A DNA stretch of 20,797 nucleotides. It comes from a virus. Location: IMG/VR virus record IMGVR_UViG_3300036792_000347, positions 1 to 20,797 of that record, one strand, 5' to 3'. How positions within the stretch are numbered: the first letter of the stretch is position 1; each line of letters opens with the position of its first letter. Position numbers and translations under genes: made by a program. Positions 2,846 to 20,797 of this stretch are shown here, one piece after another. The notes under the pieces were generated by a model. It made no database searches. It had not been told where the DNA came from and worked only from the letters and a program-made list of their open reading frames with translations.

Positions 2846-3454
2846 ATGGATATCGATTTACTTGTGAAGTGGGCGACCATTGTGAATCCAGTCATTGGAA
2901 CTGTCACCTTGGTGATTCTGCTCTGGTACACCTTTGAGACCTACAAGTTGCGCACGACAGCACAAAGGCAGCTTATGCTCCCAATGATGCCGGTCGTTCT
3001 ACTGCGGATGGAACTTGGTATGATCGCCCCGAACAGGAATATGGCGAAAGAGCAGTCATTCACCTTAGCAGTGAGGAATGTAGGGGTCGGCCCAGCCTTT
3101 AATGTCCAGATCGAGCCGAGAAGCAAGGGCGGCATCGACGTACTATTTGACAGGATACCCTTCCTGGAGCCCAGCGATGAAAAACCGATTGAGTGCCAGG
3201 TCGAGGAGGAAGGTAAGAGTAAAATTGTGAGTTCTGTCGACCGCCTGAAGACTCTAATCCAGAATGACGAGTTTGACACGGTGAGTGATGTCGTCGTCAG
3301 TTACATTGACGCTGGCGGGACTTCCTACCGCTCAATTCACAAATTGAAGCCTGGAGATTTCATGTTCAATCTTGAAACGGTATACCAGAAGCACCAGGAA
3401 ATGAGGGCAGCTCGCTCCCTTTGGCAACGACTTATAGAGAGGTTCACCCACTAA
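2846..3454 (+). CDS. Hypothetical membrane-anchored protein with one N-terminal helix
   Basis: 202 residues. Residues about 8-30 (WATIVNPVIGTVTLVILLWY and flanks) form a single hydrophobic helix, followed by a basic stretch (YKLRTTAQRQL). The large remainder is soluble and probably beta-rich, with alternating hydrophobic residues (FTLAVRNVGVGPAFNVQIEP) reminiscent of an immunoglobulin-like fold. This plan, one helix plus a cytosolic domain, is common among bacterial proteins of unknown function; no specific role can be assigned. The ATG at 2846 gives the helix at the very N-terminus. It closes the three-gene accessory unit and is followed by a leftward gene, so transcription must stop around 3455-3537, where I see no clear terminator. 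Confidence 0.65.
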   Translation: MDIDLLVKWATIVNPVIGTVTLVILLWYTFETYKLRTTAQRQLMLPMMPVVLLRMELGMIAPNRNMAKEQSFTLAVRNVGVGPAFNVQIEPRSKGGIDVLFDRIPFLEPSDEKPIECQVEEEGKSKIVSSVDRLKTLIQNDEFDTVSDVVVSYIDAGGTSYRSIHKLKPGDFMFNLETVYQKHQEMRAARSLWQRLIERFTH

Positions 3455-4278: not shown

Positions 4279-4780
4279 GGGTGAATTCCCCGGCGATTGT
4301 CGCTCGCGACCCCACGAAGTCAGCCGTGGATAACTTTTTTAGCTTCTTGGCGGAAATATGGGGTAGAAGTTCTCAGGAAACGTCTTGAAGATCTGAAAAA
4401 TAAGGTAAGTTGGAGTTGCAAACAGCTTTACCTCGCAAGCGTCGCAGTAGTTACAAAGACGGGGGTGAATTAGATTGGCTAATCACGGTGTTTGTAAATC
4501 TGTCGCGTGGAGTAGCTTTGACACTGAACCACTGGCCCGCCCTTGGTTGGCTCGCATTTACTTTTCGAAGATTGCGGATCGATTTCGACTTCCGCATCCG
4601 AATAAAATTTGAACCCGCCACGATTGCGAGAACGCTCACATATCGCGGATAACCATCGGGGTGGCTCAAACTGCCCCGGTTCCTTATAGTTTGAACGATG
4701 AGGAATCAGGTTCTTGGGGGACGATATTGCACTCTACTCGCTCCAACCTGAACAAGTACGGACCATTTCACCTTACATAT
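4279..4780. other. Gene-poor stretch, possibly degenerate
   Basis: About 500 bases without a confident gene. It holds a DnaA-box-like CGTGGATAA at 4325-4333 (one mismatch, isolated), the low-confidence small ORF at 4475-4612, and a hairpin CGGGGTGG/CTGCCCCG at 4657-4678 with two wobble pairs and a 6-base loop. The hairpin has only a weak T-rich tail. It lies downstream of the leftward operon's end on the far side of the strand and may be a remnant terminator. Confidence 0.4.
4475..4612 (+). CDS. Small hypothetical ORF or gene remnant
   Basis: A 45-residue ORF from a TTG start, preceded by a G-rich stretch (GGGGGTG). Its C-terminal half (LARIYFSKIADRFRLPHPNK) has a much more protein-like composition than the overlapping frames: amphipathic, with alternating aromatic and basic residues. 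The upstream part is less convincing. It may be the 3' end of a decayed gene in an otherwise gene-poor stretch. No family is recognised and no neighbour suggests a role. Confidence 0.25.
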   Translation: MANHGVCKSVAWSSFDTEPLARPWLARIYFSKIADRFRLPHPNKI

Positions 4781-6057: not shown

Positions 6058-6885
6058 TCACCTGACAATGTCGCCTAGGGACGGCATTATTCCAAGCGCA
6101 AGCCAGTTCATGATCGGGTAAGCGATGTCCTTTATCGCGTCCTCTGATATCACATGATCAAAATGTGATCTCCAGCTTGGTCCATCTAGATCGTTCTGGT
6201 CTACAAATATACCTTCCAGCGGGGAGAACTCTTCGGTCAGTCGGGCGAGTTGCCTTCTTCTCGCTGACCAAGCAATCATGTCGGCAGCCTGAAGCGCTGG
6301 CACCTTATCGTCAGTGTCGAAAGCAAAAAATCCAACGCTTTTATTAATTGTTGAATTTGAGTCGACTATTGCCTGATGAGCTTTTACCAGTTGCTCTGAA
6401 TGCCCAAACCCGTTGTCAACCAAATAGGAGATGGGGTGAGCGGCATAGTAACGACTTAGGCTTGAAAAGCTTGCGTTGACGGAAACGGTTACAAAGAAAC
6501 ACATCGCATACGGGCCGATCAGCTGCCTTCTAACATCCGGCGTCAATGCAGTATCATACGATTTAGAATCAACGGAGACAGATAGGCTGTAGAGTTTGTA
6601 TTTGTTTAAAACCGCGACGGCTTCCCGAAAAAGCGCCTTCTTAATCTCTGGGTAAATGCCGGAATACTTTCCGTACGGCTTTACAAAATCTGTCATGTGA
6701 AGCGGCGATTCAACACGAAATCTAGCCAAAAGCTTGTTCCATTCTTCCGAAAAACCAACGTTTGCCTCCATGGACAGTATAGGACCGCCAGTACAGGTCA
6801 GGGGCGAAAGGTCATCGCTGCCACTATCGTCCAAGTATGACGTGAGGGACATGGATTGATTATTAGGAAGATAGGAATGATGCAT
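6058..6885 (-). CDS. DUF3800 domain protein
   Basis: 275 residues with the landmarks of the DUF3800 family: an N-terminal strand YLDDSGS (Asp19, Asp20), SPLHMTDF (His63), a mid-protein strand SYLVDNGFG (Asp157) and ALQAADMIAW near 198-206 (Gln199, Asp202). The acidic residues on successive strands suggest an RNase H-like fold and a metal-dependent nuclease activity, but no biochemical role is established for the family. It recurs in defence islands and mobile elements. The start at 6885 is uncertain; the Met at residue 12 (6852) also precedes the core, and neither has a good ribosome binding site. It lies in the leftward block upstream of the basic protein and TIR-like genes. Confidence 0.85.
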   Translation of the reverse strand: MHHSYLPNNQSMSLTSYLDDSGSDDLSPLTCTGGPILSMEANVGFSEEWNKLLARFRVESPLHMTDFVKPYGKYSGIYPEIKKALFREAVAVLNKYKLYSLSVSVDSKSYDTALTPDVRRQLIGPYAMCFFVTVSVNASFSSLSRYYAAHPISYLVDNGFGHSEQLVKAHQAIVDSNSTINKSVGFFAFDTDDKVPALQAADMIAWSARRRQLARLTEEFSPLEGIFVDQNDLDGPSWRSHFDHVISEDAIKDIAYPIMNWLALGIMPSLGDIVR

Positions 6886-9709: not shown

Positions 9710-9737
9710 GTGACATGGTAAACCGCAGGGCTATAAT
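9710..9737 (+). promoter_or_regulatory. Sigma-70-type promoter for the TIR gene, overlapped by a palindrome
   Basis: -35 GTGACA (9710-9715, one mismatch to consensus), a 16-base spacer, and a perfect -10 TATAAT (9732-9737). Transcription would begin near 9744, giving a leader of about 15 bases with the ribosome binding site GAGGA before the ATG at 9759. The -10 sits inside a perfect palindrome, GGCTAT-A-ATAGCC (9729-9741), so a repressor could block it. Confidence 0.65.
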
Positions 9738-9758: not shown

Positions 9759-10535
9759 ATGAAAGTTTTCATAACGTGGTCGGGAGAGACTAGTCGGCGG
9801 ATAGCGCATGCACTCCACGATTTCATCCCGAAGATATTGCAGGTGGTGGAACCCTTCATGTCGGAAAAGGATGTGGACAAGGGAACCCGCTGGCAATCGG
9901 GTCTTTCAGCCGAGTTGGATGCTTCTGCTATGGGCATTATCTGCCTTACACCCGATAACTTAACCGCACCGTGGATTCTGTTCGAAGCAGGTGCCTTATC
10001 GAAAAAGCTGGAAAAAGCGGAGTCGCGAGTTTATACCTACCTGCACAAGGTAGCGTCCGCTGACATTAAATTTCCTCTGTCGATGTTCCAATACACTTTT
10101 GCCACCAAGGAGGATACGCGCAAGCTGCTGCACAGCATCCGCAACTTCACTAAGACGGCAAGTCCTTCCGCACAGTCGCTCGACGAATTATTTGAACTCA
10201 TGTGGCCGAAGTTTGAGTTAACACTCAATGAAGTGGCACCGGAACCCAAATCTTCGCCGCGTTCAACAGATGAAATGGTGGCGGAAATATTGGAGTTAAC
10301 CCGAGGTATGGCTACGGCTCAGCAGGCGCAACTGGCGTCCGCAGGCGCATATAACGACTGGTTCCAAGCTTTTAAACAGACCGCCGCGATTACGGGTATT
10401 CTATCGAATAGGTCTACGGTTGCAGATTTAGTGCATGGAATACTGGCTGAACGAGATAACATCATTGAGGCAAGCTGGCACGCCACCCATAAACCGACTG
10501 ACAATTCAGGGAAGATCAAAGACGAAGACGCGTAA
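9759..10535 (+). CDS. TIR-domain protein (putative NAD-cleaving effector)
   Basis: 258 residues. Residues 1-130 form a bacterial TIR domain: KVFITWSGETSRRIAHAL (first strand and helix), VEPFMSEKDVDKGTRW (BB-loop region), GLSAELDASAMGIICLTPDN, and APWILFEAGAL with Glu76 at the position of the catalytic Glu of NAD-hydrolysing TIR proteins. The C-terminal part is helical (DEMVAEILELTRGMATAQQA and on) and may mediate oligomerisation. Family knowledge links this TIR type to anti-phage abortive infection by NAD depletion; activity here is inferred. It has its own promoter, a good ribosome binding site (GAGGA) and no close partner on the same strand. It converges with the membrane protein gene 34 bases away. 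Confidence 0.9.
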   Translation: MKVFITWSGETSRRIAHALHDFIPKILQVVEPFMSEKDVDKGTRWQSGLSAELDASAMGIICLTPDNLTAPWILFEAGALSKKLEKAESRVYTYLHKVASADIKFPLSMFQYTFATKEDTRKLLHSIRNFTKTASPSAQSLDELFELMWPKFELTLNEVAPEPKSSPRSTDEMVAEILELTRGMATAQQAQLASAGAYNDWFQAFKQTAAITGILSNRSTVADLVHGILAERDNIIEASWHATHKPTDNSGKIKDEDA

Positions 10536-11307: not shown

Positions 11308-11403
11308 GGCTGTCATCCTATCACCGATGGTTATCCGATCCAGCAGAAAATGCGAGCCCCTAGGTCAACTCCGGGTCCGCACCGTAGATAAGCCTGGTTA
11401 ACG

Positions 11404-11465
11404 AGTAAGTAAACCAAAAACAAACTTCCCGTTCCATTTACAGAGCCGCAAAGCAAAACAGGCTC
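11404..11465 (+). promoter_or_regulatory. Leader element, copy A, with hairpin before the ribosome binding site
   Basis: A stretch in which blocks such as AGTAAGT, ACTTCC, GTTCC and TTTACAGAGCCGCA recur in the same order as in copy B (12159-12219). It ends in a hairpin whose arms are GAGCC (11443-11447) and GGCTC (11461-11465), directly followed by AGGAG. It precedes the gene at 11479. Confidence 0.6.
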
Positions 11466-11478
11466 AGGAGAGAAATCA

Positions 11479-12079: not shown

Positions 12080-12133
12080 AAAAAGCCTCGCTCCTGCCTA
12101 ACAAAGGCGGATTCGAGGCTTTTGTATTTTTAA
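12080..12133 (+). terminator. Strong intrinsic terminator
   Basis: AAAAAGCCTCG pairs with CGAGGCTTTTG (a stem of 10-11 bp), with a nested GCCT/AGGC hairpin in the loop, followed by a T-rich tail (TTTTGTATTTTT). It ends the transcript of the genes at 11479 and 11778. The A-rich left arm could also terminate leftward transcription. Confidence 0.85.
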
Positions 12134-12158
12134 TCGCTAATAAGCAGGTAAAAGCATA

Positions 12159-12219
12159 AGTAAGTCACAAACGGACTTCCTGTTCCTTTTACAGAGCCGC
12201 ACAAAACTTCAACCGGCTC
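12159..12219 (+). promoter_or_regulatory. Leader element, copy B, with hairpin before the ribosome binding site
   Basis: This is the second copy of the element seen at 11404-11465. Its hairpin arms GAGCCG (12194-12199) and CGGCTC (12214-12219) are one base pair longer than in copy A and have a different loop. It is followed by a near-perfect ribosome binding site, AAAGGAGG (12223-12230), for the gene at 12240. The copies begin just after a gap in the preceding gene or terminator, so a shared promoter, antiterminator or cis-acting RNA is plausible. Confidence 0.6.
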
Positions 12220-12239
12220 ATTAAAGGAGGCATTTAAAA

Positions 12240-12506
12240 ATGCCACATCAGGAAGCACCGAATACACCATCTGTCGCAGAAACCGCAGAGATCATGCGCG
12301 AGGCGATAGTCCAGCTCCGCGAAATGTACGTCTACTGCAAGCTCCGAACACTGCCGTATGAGTTTTCAGAGATTGAACGAGCCGAGGCTGACAAGCTGAT
12401 CGCCGATTTACCTCCCGACGTTGGCTGCCGCGATGCCCTCGACTCCATAACCACGACTCTCTACCGTAATCGTCTGGCGCAAAGCAAGGAGAATGGCCAT
12501 GTCTAA
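12240..12506 (+). CDS. Small hypothetical protein upstream of the sigma-like gene
   Basis: 88 residues with an excellent ribosome binding site (AAAGGAGG). A Pro-rich lead is followed by helices: VAETAEIMREAIVQLREMYV, YEFSEIERAEADKLIADLPP and DALDSITTTLYRNRLAQS. It contains Cys at about 34 and 62. No family is recognised. Its 3' end overlaps the start of the sigma-like gene by 8 bases and the two share leader copy B, so they form a tight two-gene unit. A regulator or anti-sigma-type partner would fit such a pairing but is only a guess. Confidence 0.7.
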   Translation: MPHQEAPNTPSVAETAEIMREAIVQLREMYVYCKLRTLPYEFSEIERAEADKLIADLPPDVGCRDALDSITTTLYRNRLAQSKENGHV

Positions 12507-13074
12507 CCCGCAGCCGTCAGTCCTTACAGCCGAGGCCGCCCTCGCGAAATATGAGTCCACCATTCGCCACCTGGCTACGACCCACCAGAAGCGCTACGGG
12601 TTGCCAACCCCCGATGTCGATGATCTCATTTCTGCTCTTCAGCTTCATCTAATCCAAATCGATCCCGTGAAATGGTCAATCGACGACTATGTCTTTATCG
12701 CATTGCGCAACGAAGTCCGGAGACTCGCGGCCATAACGCGTAAGCACAATGACCGTTTGATCTCTGGCGATTCACCCACAGAACCCGATGGCACCCCCGT
12801 ATTTGATCGCCTGCAGGCGCCTGGCGTGCCTCCCGACGCTGATAGGCGTCCCACGGTGGCCGAATTCCTGGCCGTGCTCACCGACCGACAGAAAAAGATC
12901 ATTACGGCAATGTACGGCCTAGACGGGCTAGCGGCGGTCACTGATTTGTATAAGCTCGCTCCAATCGCAGGTCTAAAAGTCGACCAAAGAAAACAGGTCC
13001 AACACGAGATCGATTGCGCCATGTTCCGCATGCGGCGGCTGGCCGGAGTTCCGGAAAAGCTGAGAAAGCTGTAA
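12499..13074 (+). CDS. Sigma-factor-like protein (putative late transcription factor)
   Basis: 191 residues from the ATG at 12499, set by AAGGAG 7 bases upstream; the ATG at 12493 is too close. Residues about 37-85 resemble sigma-70 region 2 (DVDDLISALQLHLIQIDP and DDYVFIALRNEVRRLAAITR). A linker follows, then residues about 122-145 (EFLAVLTDRQKKIITAMYGL) resemble the start of region 4, ending in a basic helix (FRMRRLAGVPEKLRKL). Both regions are weakly conserved, so this may be a diverged phage sigma factor or a terminase-associated regulator. It lies just upstream of an intergenic hairpin element that recurs before a virion gene, which suits a late activator. Confidence 0.65.
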   Translation: MSNPQPSVLTAEAALAKYESTIRHLATTHQKRYGLPTPDVDDLISALQLHLIQIDPVKWSIDDYVFIALRNEVRRLAAITRKHNDRLISGDSPTEPDGTPVFDRLQAPGVPPDADRRPTVAEFLAVLTDRQKKIITAMYGLDGLAAVTDLYKLAPIAGLKVDQRKQVQHEIDCAMFRMRRLAGVPEKLRKL

Positions 13075-13075
13075 G

Positions 13076-13123
13076 TCAACCCCATATTTAGACCATCACG
13101 GGCACTATTACTATTTAGTGCCC
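13076..13123 (+). promoter_or_regulatory. Repeated intergenic element, copy C (conserved block plus hairpin)
   Basis: The block TCAACCCCATATTT (13076-13089) follows the sigma-like gene's stop almost at once. About 10 bases later a hairpin GGGCACTA/TAGTGCCC (13100-13123) has an 8-base loop. The same block and the same CACTATTAC hairpin edge recur as copy D (15818-15861). It lies upstream of the HNH gene. Confidence 0.65.
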
Positions 13124-13169
13124 TCCGTTAAATTGACCGCTACGCCAATCTCCGCCACGCGCGGTTTGT

Positions 13170-13529
13170 ACGCCTAGCGCTGCAAAGCGACCCTGCTTAA
13201 TGCCGGGTTGCAAGAATCTCGTGGTTGGCGGTTATTGCCCCGACCACGAGAAACACCGTCCGACGAGAATCTATGACCGGGATCGGGGAACACCAGACGA
13301 ACGCGGGTATGACTCTCGATGGAAAGCTTTTCGGCTTAGGTACCTATCGAAACCTGAAAACGTGATGTGTCGGGATTGCGTTGCATGCGGCGCTATGCCT
13401 CCGCAGATATCGACTGAAGTACATCATATCGAAAGACTGAAAAATCGGCCCGATCTGAAGTTTGAGGAATCGAATCTGATGGCGTTATGCAAACCATGCC
13501 ATTCAACGCGGACAAGCAATGGAGAGTAA
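13170..13529 (+). CDS. HNH endonuclease with N-terminal zinc knuckle; start codon unclear
   Basis: Phage HNH nuclease that normally works with the terminase at cos-type packaging. The first ATG is at 13200, but the frame upstream to 13170 encodes PSAAKRPC, which completes the usual N-terminal knuckle (Cys, PGC, YCPDH). At 13170, where a start would be expected, the codon is ACG. The core shows RGYDSRW, MCRDCVACG, EVHHIERLKNRP (HH pair), ESNLMALCKPCHSTRTS (CxxC and the final His). The 13170-13199 part is therefore either untranslated by ordinary rules, started at ACG, or lost its ATG by mutation. It lies 2 bases before the cupin gene. The function is secure; the exact start is not. Confidence 0.85.
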   Translation, partial: TPSAAKRPCLMPGCKNLVVGGYCPDHEKHRPTRIYDRDRGTPDERGYDSRWKAFRLRYLSKPENVMCRDCVACGAMPPQISTEVHHIERLKNRPDLKFEESNLMALCKPCHSTRTSNGE

Positions 13530-13531
13530 TA

Positions 13532-13912
13532 ATGAACGGATCTAAAACCTGCCTTCAAGTAATAGAGCATGTTTCGGGGAATATTTTCTTGCGTCCGAAC
13601 ATCGGCGGCAAAGGCGATAAAGTCGGCGGACACAAACACAATTTCGACCACACAACGTTTATCATCCGTGGCTCGATCCATGTAAAGTTCGGCTGCCCCT
13701 GCCAGGCCACTTACCGCGAGGAGACCTATCAAGCTGGCGATCACTTCTTAGTCAAAGCTGAAATCGAACACTTTATTGAATTTCTGGAAGACAACTCGCT
13801 TTTTTACTGCGTCTACAGCCATCGGGACCCGACCGGTGAGGTCGTTCAAGAGTACCCAGGCATTGGTACTCCCCATGAATTAAGTGTGGGCAGCGAGTCC
13901 GCTTACCAGTAA
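13532..13912 (+). CDS. Cupin-fold protein
   Basis: 126 residues from the ATG at 13532, preceded by GGAGAG; an ATG at 13487 lies inside the HNH gene and is rejected. A single cupin barrel is visible: GGHKHNFDHTTFIIRG (His34, His36, His40 as metal ligands, with His40 in place of the usual Glu), a middle strand pair, and YQAGDHFLVKAEIEHFIEFL (His80 as fourth ligand). A short insert CPC lies at 55-57. Metal binding is thus likely; the substrate is unknown. Cupins are unusual between an HNH nuclease and fibre genes, so this may be a virion-associated sugar-modifying or binding protein, or cargo. It lies 2 bases after the HNH gene and 10 before the fibre gene. Confidence 0.8.
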   Translation: MNGSKTCLQVIEHVSGNIFLRPNIGGKGDKVGGHKHNFDHTTFIIRGSIHVKFGCPCQATYREETYQAGDHFLVKAEIEHFIEFLEDNSLFYCVYSHRDPTGEVVQEYPGIGTPHELSVGSESAYQ

Positions 13913-13922
13913 GTGGACACCC

Positions 13923-15812
13923 ATGTCGATCACATTAGTACAAAGTAAGTCCACCACAGCGGGTGCGACGATCAGCTCCCCGCTGTCGGCCACGTTCAAC
14001 AGCGCGGTCACCATAGGTAATACAATTATAGTAGCTTTTTCGCATAATTATATAAATTGCTCGCCAAATGGTTGCACCGACAACTTAGGGAATGTCTACA
14101 CGCGCTACGGTTCTGGCCAATCGGCTGGTGGCACATCGATGTTTTTGTGGTTTTATTCAGCTCCCGTTACCGTGGCTGGAACTTGCACTCCCACAATAAC
14201 TTACGCTTGCGGGTCCAGCCGATCCGCATTCTGGACTGAGTGGTCCGGCATCTCTCTCACTTCGCCATTTGACGGAAGCATAGACGCGGCGAATGTAACC
14301 AGCCCGTGCTCCTCGGGAAGTTTAACAACCACGACAGCGGGCGACCTCTTACTAAGCTTCTTTAACGGCGTCGCCCTGCCGGTGTGGACAGGCGGTAGTG
14401 GGCAAACCGTAATTGGCACAAATGGAATGAACGATATGTGCCAGTTTTCCATTGCTGGAGCAGCGGGGAGTTATTCGGCCAGTGCGTCCGCTTCGGGTAT
14501 AGGTGGGGTCTACAAAGGGTTTGCTTATCTCGGTGCTTGGAAAGCCGCTTCTTCGGGTACCGCTAACAACAAAAGCGTATCCGACAGTTATTCGATTGCC
14601 GAGCTATTACTTAGATCGACCTCCAAAAGGCCATCCGACTCGATCTCGCTCGTCTCGTCGCTATTGCGCCAACCTGCAAAGATTCTATCTAGTCCGATCA
14701 CGCTAGCCGACGCAGCTACGAAAGCTACAGCTAAAGCGCCGTTACCGGAATCGATTGCAACATCAGAGAGCATTGTCAAGAATCCGGCCAAAGTTGCATC
14801 GGATTCATTCTCGCTGAATGAAACGTTCTCTAGGGTAGCGTCTCTGATTCGTTCTTTTGCGGATTCCTTCAGTCTAAGTGATTTCTTGTCGAGCGCAAAA
14901 GCTAAACTGCTGGCTTTTTCCGAGTCTCTGGCTCTATTTGAACTGGTAACGACTTCTACCGCACGAGCCCGTTCTTACATTGACTCAATCAGCCCTGTCG
15001 AGACGTTATCGACCGCAGCCTCGCGCATTCGTGCGTTTGTTGAGTCGATCAGCGTATTTGAAGCGCTCAGCAGCAAGAAAGGGAAGCTGTTGGCGCTGTT
15101 GGACGACTTAACGCTCAGTGAGACGCTATCCCGCAGCATCAACAAAGTCCACCAGGACGCTCTAGCGATCACAGATGGAATCCGGAAAGCGACGCAACGT
15201 GTTGTAAATGAAGTACTCAGCATTGCTGATGTGATCACTTCGGTTCGTGGAAAGATCGCAACGTTTGTTGAGTCTCTGGCGATCAGCGATCTGATCACAA
15301 GACTTACAGGTCGTTCGCTGACGGACCAACTCAGTCCGAGCGAGACTATCAAGCGGTCCATCAGCCGCAGTCTGGCGGACGCTATAAGCCTGATCGATGC
15401 TGTGAGAGCGGCACTATCGGGCGCTAATGAGGCCGTTCGCAAGTTCTTTGCTGAAGTGCTCCAAAGACTTTGGCCCCTAAATAAACAAATCAGAACCTGG
15501 TCGCTCTATGCGGTCGAGCGGACGTGGAACGCATCGGAGAACAACATGATACACACGATTAAAGATCCTGCAGCGAGCGAGGATTTCGAAATTGATTGGT
15601 CGGCAGAACTCGGCGCGGACACCATCGCATCCAGCGTTTGGTCGGCACCGTCAGGCATAACCCTGACAAATCAGACCAACACGTCGACCACGGCAACAGC
15701 CCGGGTTGGTGGCGGAACGCTCGGAAGGATCTACAAAGTCGCTAATACAGTGACAACCGCCTCTGGTCAAGTCAAGGTCCAGCACATATCTATGACTATT
15801 GCGACGATTTAG
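13923..15812 (+). CDS. Tail-fibre / adhesin-like protein with about 15 short repeats and a C-terminal virion domain
   Basis: 629 residues from the ATG at 13923; an earlier ATG overlaps the cupin gene. Residues 1-215 form a beta-rich domain with Cys pairs (CSPNGCTDNLGNVY, WTEWSGI, TTTTAGDLLLSFF), like phage receptor-binding or lectin-type domains. Residues about 215-510 contain about 15 imperfect 18-20-residue repeats following the pattern K/R-x-DSxSLxExLSR, probably a trimeric shaft. A short linker (FFAEVLQRLWPLNKQIRTWS) follows, then a C-terminal domain from IHTIKDPAASEDFEIDWSAE to the end that resembles a small virion protein often encoded alone. An in-frame ATG at 15546 with GGAGA in front may also yield that domain separately. 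Confidence 0.75.
   Translation: MSITLVQSKSTTAGATISSPLSATFNSAVTIGNTIIVAFSHNYINCSPNGCTDNLGNVYTRYGSGQSAGGTSMFLWFYSAPVTVAGTCTPTITYACGSSRSAFWTEWSGISLTSPFDGSIDAANVTSPCSSGSLTTTTAGDLLLSFFNGVALPVWTGGSGQTVIGTNGMNDMCQFSIAGAAGSYSASASASGIGGVYKGFAYLGAWKAASSGTANNKSVSDSYSIAELLLRSTSKRPSDSISLVSSLLRQPAKILSSPITLADAATKATAKAPLPESIATSESIVKNPAKVASDSFSLNETFSRVASLIRSFADSFSLSDFLSSAKAKLLAFSESLALFELVTTSTARARSYIDSISPVETLSTAASRIRAFVESISVFEALSSKKGKLLALLDDLTLSETLSRSINKVHQDALAITDGIRKATQRVVNEVLSIADVITSVRGKIATFVESLAISDLITRLTGRSLTDQLSPSETIKRSISRSLADAISLIDAVRAALSGANEAVRKFFAEVLQRLWPLNKQIRTWSLYAVERTWNASENNMIHTIKDPAASEDFEIDWSAELGADTIASSVWSAPSGITLTNQTNTSTTATARVGGGTLGRIYKVANTVTTASGQVKVQHISMTIATI
15546..15812 (+). CDS. Possible internal start producing the C-terminal virion domain alone
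   Basis: This is in the same frame as the fibre gene. ATG at 15546 is preceded by GGAGA, 5 bases upstream. It would give 88 residues beginning MIHTIKDPAASEDFEIDWSA, a beta-rich domain ending in VQHISMTIATI. In other phages this type of domain is, to my knowledge, usually a separate gene, so an internal start or a fusion of two genes is plausible. Confidence 0.4.
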   Translation: MIHTIKDPAASEDFEIDWSAELGADTIASSVWSAPSGITLTNQTNTSTTATARVGGGTLGRIYKVANTVTTASGQVKVQHISMTIATI

Positions 15813-15817
15813 GCAAC

Positions 15818-15861
15818 TCAACCCCATATTTGGATACCTCCGATCACTATTACATTAGTGA
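15818..15861 (+). promoter_or_regulatory. Repeated intergenic element, copy D (conserved block plus hairpin)
   Basis: TCAACCCCATATTT (15818-15831) is identical to copy C. Twelve bases later comes the hairpin TCACTA/TAGTGA (15844-15861) with loop TTACAT. The stem differs from copy C at its base while pairing is kept. It follows the fibre gene's stop and precedes the virion gene at 15917. Confidence 0.65.
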
Positions 15862-15916: not shown

Positions 15917-16459
15917 ATGAAGACTGAGATCCTGGCCGTACGCGACACTAACACCGAGTTCGTCTTGCGCGACAAAGAAGGTAACATCAAGCAACTGTTC
16001 CAACCCAACGTGTTGGGTAATCTGACTGGCTTGCGTATTCCATTCGTGACTGGCACATATCAGGACAGTTATAAGCGGCATAATTTGGTGACCAACGTTG
16101 GGCATCAGGGTTGCGCTTCGAGATTGTCGAATCAAGGCAGTTTTTCACCGTTCGTGAATATTGCGATTGGTACCGGCACGACTGCTGCTGCTGTGACCAA
16201 CACTGCACTACAGACCGAGATCACGACAGGCGGTGGCGCTCGCAAGGCAGCCACTGCATCGTTGACCACCACAAATGTGTCGAACGACACGGTATCACTG
16301 ACCGCTGCGTTCACGTTCAGTTCGTCATTTGCGGTCACCGAAGAAGGCATCCTGGACAACGCCGTTTCTGGTGGAAATCTATTAGCGCATCAGGTGTTCA
16401 GCCCCCTTTCAGTCGCGAGCGGCGACAGCCTCACTGTGACCCACACGGTAGTGTGTTAG
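15917..16459 (+). CDS. Phage virion (tail-type) structural protein
   Basis: 180 residues, preceded by CGAGGTAG. It is beta-rich with a pattern known from phage structural proteins: LVTNVGHQGCASRLSN, FVNIAIGTGTTAAA, NTALQTEITTGGGAR, then paired strands NDTVSLTAAFTFSSSFAV, TEEGILDNAVSGGNLLAH and VFSPLSVASGDSLTVTHTV. Such proteins are annotated in other phages as tail or fibre-associated proteins; the exact place in the particle is unclear. The N-terminal 40 residues (TNTEFVLRDKEGNIKQLFQP) look like a separate small strand domain. It lies after repeat copy D, away from the usual head-tail order. Confidence 0.75.
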   Translation: MKTEILAVRDTNTEFVLRDKEGNIKQLFQPNVLGNLTGLRIPFVTGTYQDSYKRHNLVTNVGHQGCASRLSNQGSFSPFVNIAIGTGTTAAAVTNTALQTEITTGGGARKAATASLTTTNVSNDTVSLTAAFTFSSSFAVTEEGILDNAVSGGNLLAHQVFSPLSVASGDSLTVTHTVVC

Positions 16460-20676: not shown

Positions 20677-20797
20677 GGACACGACTCCCAAACTGGAGCG
20701 ACGCACCATCAACACTCAGGAGATGCGCTCAGTCTCCACCGATTCCGGTCACGTCGCCAGCGGAACGTGCATCGTCTACAACAGTCTCTCAGAGGAC
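20648..20797 (+). CDS. Prohead protease, 3' truncated by window edge
   Basis: The first 50 codons are visible from the ATG at 20648, inside the end of the portal gene. The start of the HK97-type (U35-like) prohead protease is recognisable: LERRTINTQEMRSVS, then GHVASGTCIVYNSLSED, the beginning of the strand that leads to the catalytic His further on. It would process the scaffold and major capsid protein. Position after the portal is the standard one. The catalytic residues are off the window. Confidence 0.85.
   Translation, partial: MKPSKLKLNRDTTPKLERRTINTQEMRSVSTDSGHVASGTCIVYNSLSED

Follow-up and report, generated by a model that had tools for sequence, protein, structure and literature searches.

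An intergenic element repeated in the late region of the viral DNA analysed here (IMG/VR virus record IMGVR_UViG_3300036792_000347, positions 1 to 20,797; this whole stretch of 20,797 nucleotides is referred to as the window) was judged to have about an even chance of being a phage-specific late promoter, or a promoter combined with an activator site. The element begins with the 14-mer TCAACCCCATATTT, of which the window holds exactly two exact copies, at 13076–13089 and 15818–15831, both on the + strand; the first-pass annotation of this DNA had reported the block as identical in two copies, and this was confirmed. A third full copy was found in a second contig, into which the phage most likely continues. 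All three full copies lie between genes in the sense orientation (+ strand) and precede late genes; copy 1 directly follows the gene of a sigma-like protein and copy 3 precedes the major capsid gene.

Alignment of the three copies revealed a rigid shared core of 36 bases, consisting of the 14-mer, 9 variable bases, CG, 2 variable bases and CACTATTAC. The CG at element positions 24–25 was common to all three, and in each (3/3) CACTATTAC began 13 bases past the 14-mer, which is element position 28. The AGTG past CACTATTAC was also common to the aligned copies, and the second dyad arm floated by 2 bases. Copy 1 (13076–13123, + strand) has its 14-mer at 13076–13089, CG at 13099–13100, CACTATTAC at 13103–13111 and the dyad at 13100–13123. 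In copy 2 (15818–15861, + strand), the corresponding parts are at 15818–15831, 15841–15842, 15845–15853 and 15844–15861. Copy 3 is outside the window (L054:789–832, + strand), between the prohead protease and major capsid genes. From the preceding stop codon to the start of the copy the distances were 1, 5 and 11 bases for copies 1, 2 and 3, respectively, and from the copy to the next gene 94, 99 and 156 bases, the first of these counted to an ACG at 13170. A stop-codon read-through signal was rejected, as the block does not keep a constant distance from the stop (1, 5, 11 bases, not one frame).

The repeat is real, and a chance origin is untenable because the second block stands at an identical offset in 3/3 copies and a third copy emerged from the scan of a public collection. 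An intergenic exact repeat of at least 14 bases arose in 25 of 2000 dinucleotide-preserving shuffles of the window's 18 intergenic stretches (3307 bases). With up to one mismatch allowed, the 14-mer had three matches in the window (both strands) vs 0 in each of 100 shuffles; with up to three mismatches, there were seven matches vs a chance mean of 1.44. Scanning for the 14-base block, a check suggested in the first-pass annotation, yielded both the third full copy (L054:789) and a near match at 4354; the third copy, the CG and the distances of 1, 5 and 11 bases from stop codons go beyond what that annotation contained. The near match, TCTACCCCATATTT (4354–4367, − strand), has one mismatch to the 14-mer, lacks the CG, CACTATTAC and the dyad, and sits in a stretch without a clear gene. 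It is possibly a relic, or unrelated.

The third copy was identified when 2.9 million viral contigs were scanned for ACCCCATATTT followed, after 6–34 bases, by CACTATTA. Seven records were returned, with the whole element in contig L054 (IMGVR_UViG_3300036792_000540, 14761 bases) alone; the other six had a G+C of 0.28–0.39 and no dyad like that of the element. The phage most likely continues into L054, because the final 54 bases of the window open this contig, which goes on with the gene of a prohead protease (Peptidase_S78), then the element (at 789) and then the gene of the major capsid protein. A sibling contig with the same sample number (3300036792), L057, shares its first 56 bases with the end of the window, so the assembly branches at the window end (20742–20797). 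Its capsid is 71% and its DNA 75% identical over 12 kb. Four-letter composition in the late half was slightly closer for L054 (0.86) than for L057 (0.83), and this, together with the shared element, weakly favours L054 over L057 as the continuation. L054 and L057 agree exactly over 125 bases before they part, as would result either from strains branching in the assembly or from recent exchange.

The gap between the protease and capsid genes of L057 was compared with the element. CTATTA and AGTGAGA were kept, the 14-mer matched at only 6/14 positions, the spacer at 5/14, CACTATTAC at 6/9 and the 3′ arm at 7/10. For the flanks, the protease end matched at 31/34 positions and the downstream sequence at 35/51 and 37/60. 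The hairpin of the element was not formed in this gap, where folding was no better than in shuffles. Pairing is therefore not what is kept, and the start-side letters are, since L057 retains CTATTA and AGTGAGA but no such hairpin. From this single comparison with one sibling, the loss of the 14-mer reads as the behaviour of a specificity determinant, and the contrast suggests that late-promoter specificity may turn over fast between otherwise similar phages. Separate hairpins were seen after the capsid genes (L054:2191–2232 and L057:2187–2208); their stems differ and a TGTAAGCC piece is common to both.

The hairpin within the element was less constant than the core, with a loop that varied among copies. 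In copy 1 it reads GGGCACTA-TTACTATT-TAGTGCCC (13100–13123), a perfect stem of 8 pairs, and in copy 2 TCACTA-TTACAT-TAGTGA (15844–15861). As described earlier, both have CACTATTAC and TTAGTG in common and differ at the foot, which is G-C in the former and T-A in the latter, read from the sequence. Of the alternatives named earlier, a processing or a terminator element, the terminator was not supported: no T-tract follows the hairpins and no intrinsic terminator was listed at any of the three copies. By contrast, a strong T-tailed terminator-like hairpin (12081–12123, + strand; −24.1 kcal/mol, z −4.95) is located upstream of the operon encoding the sigma-like protein. As this hairpin too went unlisted, its apical part being too large for the scan, the terminator scan is not a sensitive one.

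The 36-base core is as long as a bacterial promoter measured from −35 to the start, and the floating second dyad arm (2 bases) fits a position beyond the start site. In a late promoter, the 14-mer would form the −35 side and CG-NN-CACTATTAC the −10 and start side, with transcription starting about the loop or the 3′ arm of the dyad. Host RNA polymerase would be brought to these sites by a regulator that the phage itself encodes; the simplest candidate is the sigma-like protein, whose gene is the last one ahead of copy 1. Copy 1 would then drive the HNH gene onward, copy 2 the genes for the Gp80 fibre, terminase, portal and protease, and copy 3 those for the major capsid and tail. Promoter activity, the start site, the reading protein and L054 as the continuation are all inferred here. 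Two promoter registers would fit the letters, namely TCAACCC-N16-CG, or a −10 at CTATTA. AAC and such spacing are usual for ECF promoters. CACTAT resembles the core of T7-type promoters; a promoter of that type was rejected, as the block is too far upstream. No consensus sigma-70 promoter was listed at the three sites by the promoter scans. The missing consensus promoters and terminators say little, however, because the scans listed no more sites than in shuffles and missed the 12081–12123 hairpin.

The proposed reader of the element is the 193-aa sigma-like protein encoded at 12493–13074 (+ strand). Its product matched PHROG 351 (sigma factor) with weak similarity (E 2.8e-4) and the NCBIfam model sigma70-ECF (TIGR02937) below cut-off (E 0.009). 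Nothing was found in Pfam at E 0.1, RpoS was the only match among solved structures (E 0.4), and a sequence-profile search gave no RinA/ArpU family match. No sigma relatives were found in the viral contigs or phages searched; one in 1 of 398 genomes (E 7.2e-4) was set aside as within the chance range for that many genomes. A clearer case was provided by L005, the best of 44 TerL relatives (63%), where a sigma factor is encoded upstream of HNH, two small frames separating the genes. This protein matched Pfam Sigma70_r2 above cut-off (E 2.3e-9) and NCBIfam sigma70-ECF below its cut-off (E 4.5e-9). The family search took 4 of the 44 listed upstream frames, giving one sigma factor, one Q-like antiterminator (upstream of TerL in L027) and two others. 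Because there are parallels for a late regulator at this location, the sigma-like assignment is reasonable, not proven, and from its position and the case of L005 the 12493–13074 protein is plausibly a late regulator that reads the element. The first-pass annotation had put forward a dedicated recognition block for the sigma-like protein. This idea was partly supported, by the promoter-length rigid spacing, the single orientation, the restriction of the three full copies to late genes, the third copy before the capsid gene, the lack of a listed consensus sigma-70 promoter and the clearer sigma factor in L005; the 12493–13074 product is a putative sigma factor and a candidate for contact with the element.

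Several observations weigh against a late promoter read by this protein. The protein resembles sigma factors only weakly, its structure prediction is uninformative (pLDDT 45), and no intergenic repeat of at least 13 bases was found in the 14.5 kb of L005 that were covered. The 14 invariant bases exceed a −35 hexamer, and a dyad is superfluous for a promoter, yet copy 1 carries a perfect one of 8 pairs. Transcripts reading through from the sigma operon could also cover copy 1. The promoter scans listed fewer sites than in shuffles (6 vs 10.3; 5 vs 10.2). The near match at 4354 is outside the late region and on the opposite strand, and it is itself beyond chance (0/100 shuffles). Finally, if L057 shares the left half of the window, the same regulator would meet a capsid gap without the element.

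The late promoter was ranked first and was followed by an RNA element acting on through-running transcripts, which we regard as a tentative second choice. In such an element, a conserved single-stranded block and a short hairpin would serve as a nut-like antitermination site, a processing or stabilizing site, or an attenuator. The order of block, spacer and small stem-loop in 3/3 copies agrees with this, as does the start of the copies 1, 5 and 11 bases past stop codons. Copies 1 and 2 folded better than shuffles, with z-scores of −4.1 and −3.7 for short stretches and −2.4 and −2.5 for longer ones, and one pair was compensated (G-C to U-A). However, the fold of copy 3 was poor (z −1.35; 19 of 200 shuffles as good), the compensated pair was one of 8 and 177 of 500 shuffles did equally well, and L057 keeps the 3′ arm without the 5′ arm. 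The block also shows no resemblance to the boxA consensus when compared by eye. Rfam returned only one unrelated match elsewhere in the window (3276–3341, with E up to 5), and none at gathering score in L054 and L057. An improbable combination of the two would be a dual-level signal, in which a sigma-factor promoter has a hairpin as its start region and the same 50 bases both start late transcripts and act on through-running RNA; the block, swapped wholesale between siblings, would then be an immunity-like late-expression code.

A DNA operator or stoperator-like site, at which a phage repressor or another DNA-binding protein on the asymmetric block or the dyad would block transcription, was considered unlikely. 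The block is asymmetric, oriented with transcription, placed between genes and absent from the sibling L057, and on its own it recurs with one mismatch at 4354 (− strand), all of which would suit an operator. Against this, just three full copies exist, in the late region, and the spacing of the dyad arms differs by 2 bases, which would be awkward for one dimer. Least probable of all is a boundary sequence with no regulatory role that recombination or the exchange of gene cassettes would have spread. In favour of it, the phage is mosaic, with 125 bases identical between L054 and L057 before they diverge, and the HNH-cupin-fibre genes (13170–15812) stand between copies 1 and 2. Against it, no inserted cassette was seen at copy 3 in the protease–capsid gap, and the constant internal spacing despite a variable 9-base spacer points to selection on the element.

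Further copies were sought with a covariance model for which the three copies served as input, so that their own 66–72 bits are by construction. A search with filters off of the window, L054, L057, L005 and L006 gave no strong match beyond the three copies; the next best (12.4 bits, E 0.14) was inside the sigma-like gene, and the 4354 site scored 9.8 bits. With default filters, the other 42 TerL loci gave one weak match (13 bits, E 0.71) and 79 capsid-gene loci nothing up to E 1. These loci are parts of contigs and include several near-duplicates, L060 being the same contig as L005. Intergenic exact repeats of at least 14 bases were present in the window and in L048, L051, L052, L075 and L117, among 133 records of at least 4000 bases, a count that leaves out L001, L002, L056, L058, L059, L139 and loci below 4000 bases. 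In L051, a 347-kb viral contig, TATAATAGATAT was seen at 118, 660, 1759, 2778 and 3315, near apparent start codons by eye; this contig has many other intergenic repeats. Copy 1 had no match in 50,697 phage records, copy 2 had short matches only in 64 of them (at most about one-third of the query), and copy 3 had one short match in plasmids (E 6). The annotated short BLAST matches lay inside unrelated genes or hypothetical proteins and were dismissed, with no credible relative of the element among them. Two genome contigs, L003 and L004, were likewise rejected: 6 and 2 bases, not 13, stand ahead of CACTA and CACTATTAC is missing. They fit the loose search pattern by design, and about two such matches are expected by chance (an estimate). 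A literature search aimed at comparable known systems, not at the sequence, returned nothing on the element, which does not imply that it is unpublished.

The HNH endonuclease gene downstream of copy 1 (13170–13529, + strand) would start at the ACG at 13170, where TPSAAKRPC corresponds to MPSAAKRPC in L044 and VPSAAKRPC in L021 and L022; its first ATG, at 13200, is inside the conserved cysteine region. Upstream of copy 2 is the gene of a fibre-like protein with a Gp77 adaptor domain (13923–15812, + strand; this start is inferred, and the longest frame runs from 13884), and downstream that of a Gp80-like fibre protein (15917–16459, + strand). A second repeat was observed at 11396–11466 and 12147–12236, where a 55-base block (80% identical) stands ahead of a GAGCC/GGCTC hairpin and then a Shine-Dalgarno sequence. 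A small gene comes after each repeat, and the later of the two runs on into the sigma-like gene. A sigma-70 promoter near consensus (11/12) was present at 9710–9737, ahead of a TIR-like gene (9759–10535). Its product matched Pfam TIR_2 below the curated cut-off (E 2.7e-5) and is perhaps an anti-phage defence protein. The − strand gene at 6058–6885 encodes a DUF3800 protein (Pfam, above cut-off).

Among known systems, the nut sites of lambda likewise consist of a block, a fixed spacer and a small stem-loop. The element differs in that its block is not boxA-like by eye, its hairpin is not kept in the sibling and it is in the late region; no N-like gene was identified, though no specific search for one was made. 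The SAS/ESAS of Cluster K mycobacteriophages are an asymmetric 13 bp repeat, about half of them with an inverted repeat; the SAS is phage specific, has several copies mostly in one orientation, and is found at translation starts in the non-structural half (PMC3203893). The element is likewise a short, asymmetric, oriented and phage-specific repeat with an inverted repeat, but it is found 94–156 bases upstream of genes, not adjacent to their starts, and among virion genes. Cluster A stoperators are also phage-specific repeats, with a regulatory role, and the 17-bp dyad repeats of Cluster O are symmetric, number >30 copies, are inside genes in about a third of cases and have an unproven role (PMC4351075). 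Here, in contrast to Cluster O, there are three full copies, all between genes, and the block is not symmetric. In the RinA/ArpU systems, the DNA repeat to which RinA binds is located upstream of terS (PMC9867676). Common to these systems and the window are a gene for a regulator close to those for packaging and DNA repeats ahead of late genes, but no family match was found here and the copies would be spread over ~8.5 kb if L054 continues the window, not clustered at terS.

With three 50-base sites and one candidate protein, a temperate phage gains a concrete candidate for a late-expression switch. If the element is sigma-dependent, an orthogonal promoter–factor pair would be on offer, and the scheme represented by Xpf would be extended to a group of phages known here from viral contigs alone. 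In PBSX, the Xpf gene lies just upstream of the late operon, and there is one late promoter. Xpf is the 20-kDa sigma2–sigma4 positive control factor (PCF) of this Bacillus subtilis prophage (PMC10141391). The present system differs from it in the weak sigma similarity and the three dispersed sites, and resembles it in having a small sigma-type protein whose gene stands at the head of the late genes.

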